This document shows positions 22,736 to 24,192 of a DNA stretch of 32,985 nucleotides, piece by piece; the stretch's first letter is position 1, and the number at the start of each line of letters is the position of its first letter. A program made the translations under genes and the position numbers. Where the stretch lies: positions 1 to 32,985 of the forward strand of contig CALUKK010000117.1 in assembly GCA_944321205.1 (NCBI GenBank), in the 5' to 3' direction. This DNA is from an uncultured Alistipes sp. (GTDB lineage Bacteria; Bacteroidota; Bacteroidia; Bacteroidales; Rikenellaceae). The notes beneath the pieces are model-generated. The model was not told the origin of the DNA. It ran no database searches and worked only from the letters and a program-made list of their open reading frames with translations.

Positions 22736-24040
22736 CTAAAGTCCGAATTCCCGACGGACGGCATCCACGGCATCGAGCTTCTCCCAACCGAAGAACTCGA
22801 TCTCGCGCTCCACCTCCCGGCCGTTCTCCCAGACCTTCACCGTCTTGCGATAAGGACGGTTTCCGAAGTGTCCGTAGGAGGCCGTGGCCTCGAAAATCGG
22901 ATTCTTCAATCCGAAACGTTTTACGATGGCGGCAGGACGCAGATCGAAGAGTTTGCCGATTCGGCGGGCTATTTCACCGTCGGTCATCCCTTCCAGAGCC
23001 TTCGGACGCGGCGAACCGTACGTGTCGACATAGATCGACAGCGGCTCGGCGATACCGATGGCATAGCTCAGCTCCACAAGCATCTGGTCGGCAACGCCCG
23101 CCGCAACCAGATTCTTGGCGATGTAGCGCGCGGCATAGGCCGCCGAACGGTCCACCTTCGAGGAGTCCTTGCCCGAGAAGGCGCCGCCGCCATGGGCTCC
23201 GCGGCCTCCGTAGGTGTCGACGATGATCTTGCGGCCCGTCAGACCGGTATCCCCGTGAGGGCCGCCGATGACAAATTTGCCCGTAGGATTCACGTGCAGG
23301 ATGTAGTCGTCGCCGATCAGATCGGCCAGCTTGTCCCCGGCACGCTCCAGACGCGCCTTCACGCGCGGAATGAGGATCGTACGCACATCCTCGCGGATGC
23401 GCTCCTGCATCTGACGTTCGGCCTGCTTCTCACTCAGACCGTTGCCCGGGCGGACAAATTCATCATGCTGCGTCGACACCACGATCGTATGCACGCGCAG
23501 CGGCTTGTTCGTCCGCTCGTCGTACTCGATCGTCACCTGCGACTTCGAATCGGGACGCAGGTAGGTCATCACCTTGCCTTCGCGGCGGATGACGGCCAGC
23601 TCCTTGAGGATGACGTGCGAGAGGATCAGCGTCGCAGGCATCATCTCGCGCGTCTCGTTGCAGGCATAGCCGAACATGATGCCCTGGTCACCGGCACCCT
23701 GTTCCTCCTCCTGCTCGCGGACTACACCCTGGTTGATGTCGGACGACTGTTCGTGGATGGCCGACAGAACGCCGCACGAGTTGCAGTCGAACTGGTATTC
23801 GCTCTTCGTGTAGCCGATGCGTTCGATCACGCGGCGTGCCACGCCCTGCACATCGACATAGGCCTCCGAGCGCACCTCGCCGGCCACGACCACAAGGCCC
23901 GTGGTACAGAGCGTTTCGCATGCGACCTTCGAATTGGGATCATGACGGAGAAACTCGTCGAGAATGGCGTCGGAAATCTGATCCGAGACCTTATCGGGGT
24001 GTCCTTCCGAGACAGACTCCGATGTAAACAAAAAACCCAT
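22736..24040 (-). CDS. metK: S-adenosylmethionine synthetase MetK
   Basis: Makes S-adenosylmethionine from methionine and ATP. The 434-residue protein starts [24 protein letters not shown], the ATP- and methionine-binding signature. The hexapeptide-type [12 protein letters not shown] and the triphosphatase P-loop-like [19 protein letters not shown] are intact. The length exceeds the roughly 384 residues of the Escherichia coli enzyme; the extra residues are mainly in the central and C-terminal domains, as is usual for Bacteroidota. The gene is monocistronic: a promoter at 24185-24192, a 140-base leader with a SAM-II-like riboswitch, and a terminator after the stop. Confidence 0.97.
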
Positions 24041-24112
24041 TTTGTACCGTTTTTTAAGGTTAAACGTCTAAAATGGGAAAAATTGGCTGTTGGAAAAATA
24101 AAAAACGTGCTG

Positions 24113-24160
24113 TTTTAGCGATTTTTTATTGTGGTTTGCAATCAGTCAAATCTTTCCACA
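24113..24160 (-). promoter_or_regulatory. SAM-II-like riboswitch in the metK leader
   Basis: The minus strand reads, in order: P1 5' arm TGTGG (24156-24160), GATTT (24148-24152), GATTGCA (24137-24143), P1 3' arm CCACA (24130-24134), an A-rich linker, AATC, then GCTAAAA (24113-24119). These are the SAM-II hallmarks: H-type pseudoknot, AUUU and UUGCA in loop 1, an A-rich linker with AUAAA, and GCUAAA at the 3' end. The pseudoknot pairing GAUU/AAUC replaces the UAUU/AAUG of the crystallised metX aptamer, a compensatory change. P1 also differs in sequence but keeps pairing. The downstream gene makes SAM. The class is best known from Alphaproteobacteria, so the phylum is of interest. Identification is by eye. 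Confidence 0.75.
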
Positions 24161-24184
24161 TTCCCCGCTTGACAGACGGGACCG

Positions 24185-24192
24185 CAAATATA
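24185..24192 (-). promoter_or_regulatory. -7 promoter element of metK
   Basis: TATATTTG on the minus strand matches TAnnTTTG exactly. CTGG stands 19 bases upstream as a partial -33. Transcription would start near 24180, giving about 140 bases of leader that include the riboswitch. Confidence 0.65.

Follow-up and report, generated by a model that had tools for sequence, protein, structure and literature searches.

A SAM-II riboswitch upstream of metK in Alistipes and its possible action on the start codon itself

Known SAM-II systems and the Alistipes aptamer

In Escherichia coli, the translational riboswitches of thiM and btuB sequester the start region and mask the Shine-Dalgarno sequence as well. 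SAM-II riboswitches of the RF00521 type are represented by metA and metZ of Sinorhizobium meliloti; passages of PMC9373788 give a predicted terminator for metZ and, for metA, a Shine-Dalgarno sequence that adjoins the pseudoknot. In the Bacteroides group, SAM-II was noted in 2005 (in a part of PMC1273637), it was reported in Bacteroidetes in 2007 (likewise in a part of PMC2258182), and RF01726 was listed for the same phylum in 2010. The available sections of PMC2864571, the source of that listing, yielded no description of an expression platform for RF01726.

Bacteroidetes lack Shine-Dalgarno sequences, and initiation depends on the structure around the AUG; the nucleotides that flank it show a tendency to stay unpaired, which is stronger in genes with high translation (according to parts of PMC6847099). 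Because initiation proceeds without Shine-Dalgarno sequences, it is a genuine question by what route riboswitches of this group act on the ribosome. The interest of the present locus lies on this output side; the aptamer is textbook.

On the minus strand of the window (the whole stretch of 32,985 nucleotides that was analysed), the TATATTTG box is followed, in 5′ to 3′ order, by a short hairpin, the SAM-II aptamer, 64 nt more of leader up to the AUG at 24040, and metK. The features of this part are:

24185-24192, minus: -7 promoter box TATATTTG of the Bacteroidota TAnnTTTG type, read from the sequence
24163-24181, minus: short GC-rich hairpin (CCCG/CGGG) between promoter and P1, predicted by folding
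24105-24165, minus: SAM-II aptamer, RF01726 (long loop), 65.3 bits against a cut-off of 44, model matched over its full length
24156-24160, minus: P1 5′ strand UGUGG, from the model alignment, invariant in 34/34 class-1 leaders
24130-24134, minus: P1 3′ strand CCACA, from the model alignment, likewise invariant in 34/34 class-1 leaders
24140-24145, minus: pseudoknot strand CUGAUU, from the sequence, able to pair with AAUC (24123-24120) and AG (24111-24110)
24110-24123, minus: pseudoknot partner AAUC, conserved GCUAAA and CAG, from the sequence and the model alignment
22736-24040, minus: metK, S-adenosylmethionine synthetase, 434 aa, with Pfam PF00438, PF02772 and PF02773 (all three MetK domains)

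RF01726 was found with an E-value of 1.3e-10 in a search of the whole window and is its sole Rfam match, both at the gathering score and at E<=0.01. The initial annotation, which had proposed a SAM-II-type element ahead of metK, is borne out by this score and by the Pfam domains, and its list of motifs proved exact: P1, GAUUUG, UUGCA, the A-rich linker and GCUAAA (24119-24114) all lie on the minus strand, with 73 nt counted between GCUAAA and the AUG where about 75 had been given. The two families it had named for checking did not hold. RF00521, the alphaproteobacterial model, reached 20.2 bits against a gathering score of 36, and none of the 8 matches with an E-value of up to 10 was SAM-V (RF01826); both are ruled out, and RF01726 is the model that fits. 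P1, the putative pseudoknot, GCUAAA and the proposed OFF logic are common to the Alistipes element and RF00521, while with RF01726 (Bacteroidetes, marine) it shares aptamer and taxon.

The covariance model and the gene context support the identification of the metK leader element as a SAM-II aptamer, with SAM binding as its predicted function. Chance resemblance without any riboswitch has next to no likelihood, given the score, the E-value and the conservation of the element ahead of metK across the order. For MetK itself, the first eight relatives among the matches listed are Alistipes proteins, 90-96% identical.

Matches to RF01726 above the cut-off were present in 133/151 genomes of the genus sample, 212/250 of the family, 176/247 of the order and 41/296 of the phylum sample. 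A MetK N-terminus follows in 235 of the 242 loci collected (226 parsed directly and 9 by a looser pattern); the remaining 7 are second copies. Loci L001-L102 comprise up to 30 best matches per search and thus tilt toward high scores, whereas L103-L242, which add 100 more genus matches, the 7 second copies and 33 family matches, are a part of all matches. Since the aptamer has been in print since 2005 and is common in genus and order, that of Alistipes adds one more case to an established family. Its presence here is ordinary; the SAM-II element on metK thus stands as first annotated, and the surprise attached to finding it in Bacteroidota does not.

We take TAnnTTTG to be the Bacteroidota -7 consensus, which would make TATATTTG a -7 box. 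Such a motif occurs no more than 65 nt ahead of P1 in 130/131 same-genus leaders and in 129/2680 shuffles, at a median distance from P1 of 15.5 nt in the leaders. Because the box stands so near P1, the aptamer is probably close to the 5′ end of the transcript. In relatives, the site of the short hairpin (24181-24163) is often occupied, by eye, by another hairpin-like sequence.

Within the aptamer of the window, GAUU (24143-24140) is able to pair with AAUC (24123-24120), and CU (24145-24144) with AG (24111-24110) could extend this pseudoknot. In the class-1 alignment, which takes in leaders up to 85 nt long (34 out of 45), the pseudoknot columns are 58.8% and 78.7% paired, counts that are unfair because the loop columns are misaligned in 14 of the 34 rows. 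P1 carries no covariation information in these leaders, being invariant.

Two predicted, competing folds around the metK start codon

Between the aptamer and the coding sequence, the following strands are of importance:

24097-24106, minus: U-rich strand, a possible partner of the aptamer's A-rich linker (24130-24121) when no ligand is bound, from folding
24071-24092, minus: anti-aptamer strand that can pair with the aptamer 5′ half (24163-24139), from folding and matched changes in relatives
24070-24077, minus: 5′ arm CCCAUUUU of the start-codon hairpin, from folding and relatives, overlapping the anti-aptamer strand
24036-24043, minus: 3′ arm AAAAUGGG of the start-codon hairpin, from folding and relatives, containing the metK AUG

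When the leader was folded alone from 24104, CCCAUUUU paired with AAAAUGGG around the AUG, with CGUUU/AAACG as the inner helix (z -1.64; 12/200 shuffles were equally stable). When it was folded together with the aptamer, the minimum-energy structure placed 24092-24071 on the aptamer 5′ half and 24106-24097 on the A-rich linker (z -2.57; 4/200 shuffles). The two pairings compete because 24077-24070 overlaps the strand 24092-24071. Computation shows, at the level of predicted folds, one leader strand taking part in two mutually exclusive pairings. A strand shared between aptamer-side and start-region pairings is also what likens this leader to thiM and btuB; the difference is the Shine-Dalgarno sequence, masked there and missing in Bacteroidetes (again by parts of PMC6847099).

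In a model of the growing transcript, P1 keeps a pairing of 0.97-1.00 until 24093 is transcribed and then drops as the anti-aptamer strand emerges, the pairing of which reaches 0.99 at 24075. For a transcript ending at 24033, the model gives 0.79 for the anti-aptamer pairing and 0.27 for the start hairpin; the anti-aptamer pairing later recovers.

With the aptamer locked, the bases of the AUG were 0.99-1.00 paired in 15/15 contexts modelled, and with the aptamer unlocked their per-base pairing ranged from 0.03 to 0.89 over the same contexts. The leader of the window, flanked by 20 nt upstream and 24 coding nt, gave an AUG pairing of 0.63 free and 0.99 locked; longer contexts change more. Computed without pseudoknot and ligand, the energy favours the free fold over the locked one by 11.7 kcal/mol, so the OFF state would need kinetic holding. 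Locally, the metK AUG is the most strongly paired among the 114 own-genome genes examined (0.993; mean 0.517), followed by that of another gene in the window (0.992).

We propose, with a probability of roughly 0.6, that at high SAM the SAM-II riboswitch acts as an OFF switch on metK translation by masking the AUG itself. The aptamer would fold first, as RNA polymerase leaves the promoter. Bound SAM would hold P1 and the pseudoknot and so keep the strand 24092-24071 off the aptamer; the 3′ part of this strand could then pair with the start region and bar 30S subunits from the AUG. When SAM is scarce, the same strand would invade the aptamer 5′ half and the U-rich strand would capture the A-rich linker, which would leave the start-codon hairpin without its 5′ arm and allow metK to be translated.

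The switched target would be the AUG rather than a Shine-Dalgarno sequence and, in contrast to S. meliloti metA and metZ, would lie about 75 nt away. Burying the start codon is in keeping with the absence of Shine-Dalgarno use in these bacteria. The earlier suggestion that control may differ from masking of a ribosome-binding site agrees with what we infer from the leader. If true, the platform would be unlike the terminators and the Shine-Dalgarno masking described for SAM-II elsewhere; in the open-licence literature, which misses most subscription journals, no description of an AUG-masking SAM-II platform was found. For a gut genus, the leader supplies a specific design that can be put to the test: the start codon is the proposed switched element, and the matched changes seen in relatives can guide the choice of mutants.

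The pairings in relatives

Identical leaders were removed before all counts. Leaders under 25 nt were excluded from the comparison of AUG pairing with shuffles, and those under 40 nt from the counts of arm, anti-aptamer strand, aptamer complementarity and P1 base.

Within the genus, the pairing of the AUG exceeded that in 95% of own shuffles for 65/127 distinct leaders. The arm, picked as YYYCCRY blind to its inner pairing, is present in 97 of the 127 leaders and absent from 30. In its inner helix, 0.646 of cells are paired; the best slid register reaches 0.533, and none of 500 permutations goes above 0.552. Of the two positions adjacent to the start codon, the first is A-U in 39 leaders and U-A in 33, with G-U and C-G pairs in addition, and the second is C-G in 36 and U-A in 29, with U-G pairs in addition. 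In two relatives whose metK starts with GUG (L138, L151), the arm has the matching change, CCGC where others have CCAU. By eye, four loci (L004, L014, L018 and L038) have long insertions in the loop of the start hairpin, with the stem kept.

The anti-aptamer strand also changes together with its partner. Parsing of the leaders lost 5/226 loci. Among the 96 anchored genus leaders, the linker AAAG goes with UUU ahead of the C-run in 44/48, AAGG with CUU in 29/31 and AGGG with CCU in 6/10, while AGAG goes with UCU in only 2/5. The leaders have a paired fraction of 0.821; permuting them 1000 times gave 0.762 (maximum 0.781), and the best slid register 0.696. Swaps of A and G at the linker are uninformative, as G strengthens most duplexes, and the fair swap is that of A and U at the P1 base: the leader pairs better with U in 68 of 126 genus leaders, equally in 36 and worse in 22.

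In the class-1 alignment (n=34), the OFF structure is 87.5% paired (slid registers 37-52%) and the ON structure 91.6% (47-67%). The helix of U-rich strand and A-linker has 95.0% of its cells paired, and 9 of its 13 pairs never vary. After shuffling of columns, the covariation score was reached in 11/500 cases for OFF and 2/500 for ON, and the number of double-change pairs in 164/500 and 47/500, respectively; the OFF structure has 3 such pairs, and two slid registers have 5. The excess over column shuffles is thus modest and double changes are few.

Modelled switching, counted as a change in AUG pairing above 0.3, was seen by class (leaders of 40-220 nt) in 15/45 class-1 leaders versus 5/180 shuffles, in 10/34 class-2 leaders versus 8/136, and in 7/47 of the remaining leaders versus 5/188. 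By taxon (leaders of 40-130 nt), it was seen in 29/106 genus leaders versus 25/424 shuffles. Switching is visible in just these 29 because many relatives have the AUG paired in the free state too, the modelled mean being already 0.70 in class 1 and 0.78 in class 2. Corresponding figures are 2/28 versus 8/112 in the family, where the modelled change in AUG pairing is 0.01, 3/25 versus 7/100 in the order, and 5/24 versus 3/96 in other orders.

All covariation counts are to be read as not independent, since the leaders have a common ancestry. A metK tree built from 112 rows of the genus and the family left 3, 1, 1 and 2 supported independent pairs for four tests, too small a number for a decision; no test was significant, and at arm position 5 no independent pair agreed. 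Leaders of the genus show matched changes in both downstream pairings.

Outside the genus, the support for the start-codon hairpin is weak. The AUG was more strongly paired than in 95% of own shuffles for 9/31 leaders of the family, 5/31 of the order and 1/26 of other orders, and the YYYCCRY anchor was found in 0/26 leaders of the latter. This weakness, the lack of support for the hairpin in other orders, the non-significant tree-aware tests and the genus leaders without the arm would suit a different reading, in which the aptamer acts by another route (for instance, a pseudoknot that blocks a standby site or alters the decay of the mRNA) and the AU-rich complementarity downstream is incidental. 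We regard it as quite improbable in view of the matched changes at both the linker and the start-codon arm, which come with register and permutation controls, and of the rank of the metK AUG in its own genome.

Complementarity to the aptamer 5′ half extends further than the arm. It beats own shuffles (p<0.05) in 66/126 leaders of the genus, 5/31 of the family, 11/30 of the order and 12/24 of other orders. In these significant leaders the median distance from the end of the strand to the AUG is 31, 35, 33 and 25 nt, respectively. In other orders, P1 has GAGG in place of GUGG in 23/24 leaders, and A gives the leader better pairing than U does in 21 of the 23; the same swap gave no preference in the order group (15 better, 14 worse). 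We tentatively suggest, at somewhat less than even odds, that Bacteroidota SAM-II riboswitches share an anti-aptamer strand ending about 25-35 nt before the start codon and that in Alistipes this strand buries the AUG, which would amount to a Shine-Dalgarno-free translational platform.

The U-tract behind the hairpin and second SAM-II-like elements

Masking of the AUG has its main rival in the sequence that follows the start-codon hairpin:

24026-24035, minus: U-tract UUUUUUGUUU after the start-codon hairpin, formed by the last base of codon 2 and metK codons 3-5, a possible terminator tail

When SAM is bound to the aptamer, the hairpin CCCAUUUU/AAAAUGGG and the UUUUUUGUUU behind it could work as an intrinsic terminator overlapping the start codon, and metK would then be controlled by transcription attenuation. 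The U-tract comes directly after the stem, the hairpin has an energy of -10.6 kcal/mol, the T-run is kept in most of the class-1 and class-2 leaders listed, and SAM-II of alpha- and betaproteobacteria is most often linked to terminators, as passages of PMC2258182 state. We nevertheless consider a terminator unlikely. The stem is AU-rich, and the U-run consists mostly of the Phe-Leu-Phe codons of the MetK N-terminus. AU-rich codons are general at the gene starts of this genome (TTT makes up 0.67 of Phe codons there, n=30, versus 0.20 further in, n=438), and we therefore rejected T-rich codons as evidence for a terminator. In addition, the hairpin persists (p 0.00-0.01) in four class-2 leaders that read AUGGCAAAUUAUCUG and have no U-tract. 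A terminator scan of the minus strand reported no site, but it covers loops of 3-8 only and is blind to this hairpin.

The hairpin of A-linker and U-rich strand (24130-24097) was also considered as an intrinsic terminator and rejected: as part of the fold without ligand, it would reverse the logic. As for codon usage in same-genus loci, metK codons 3-5 (24034-24026) have TTT for 92% of Phe, compared with 38% further in, and TTA for 55% of Leu, compared with 2%.

Apart from the metK leaders, a second SAM-II-like element was observed in 7/151 same-genus genomes (L203-L209, from G141, G047, G057, G040, G150, G123 and G043). These score 40.6-52.7 bits, six of them over the cut-off, and the proteins encoded 58-114 nt downstream have about 260 or 300 aa (102 aa in L206). 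The two such proteins that were searched, those of L203 and L209, had no match in Pfam, NCBIfam, PHROGs or PADLOC. A SAM-II aptamer on uncharacterised genes, or one of altered specificity, would merit attention. Core bases are changed in several of these elements, with GCCAAA or ACCAAA in L206-L208 and TTGTG in L205 and L209.
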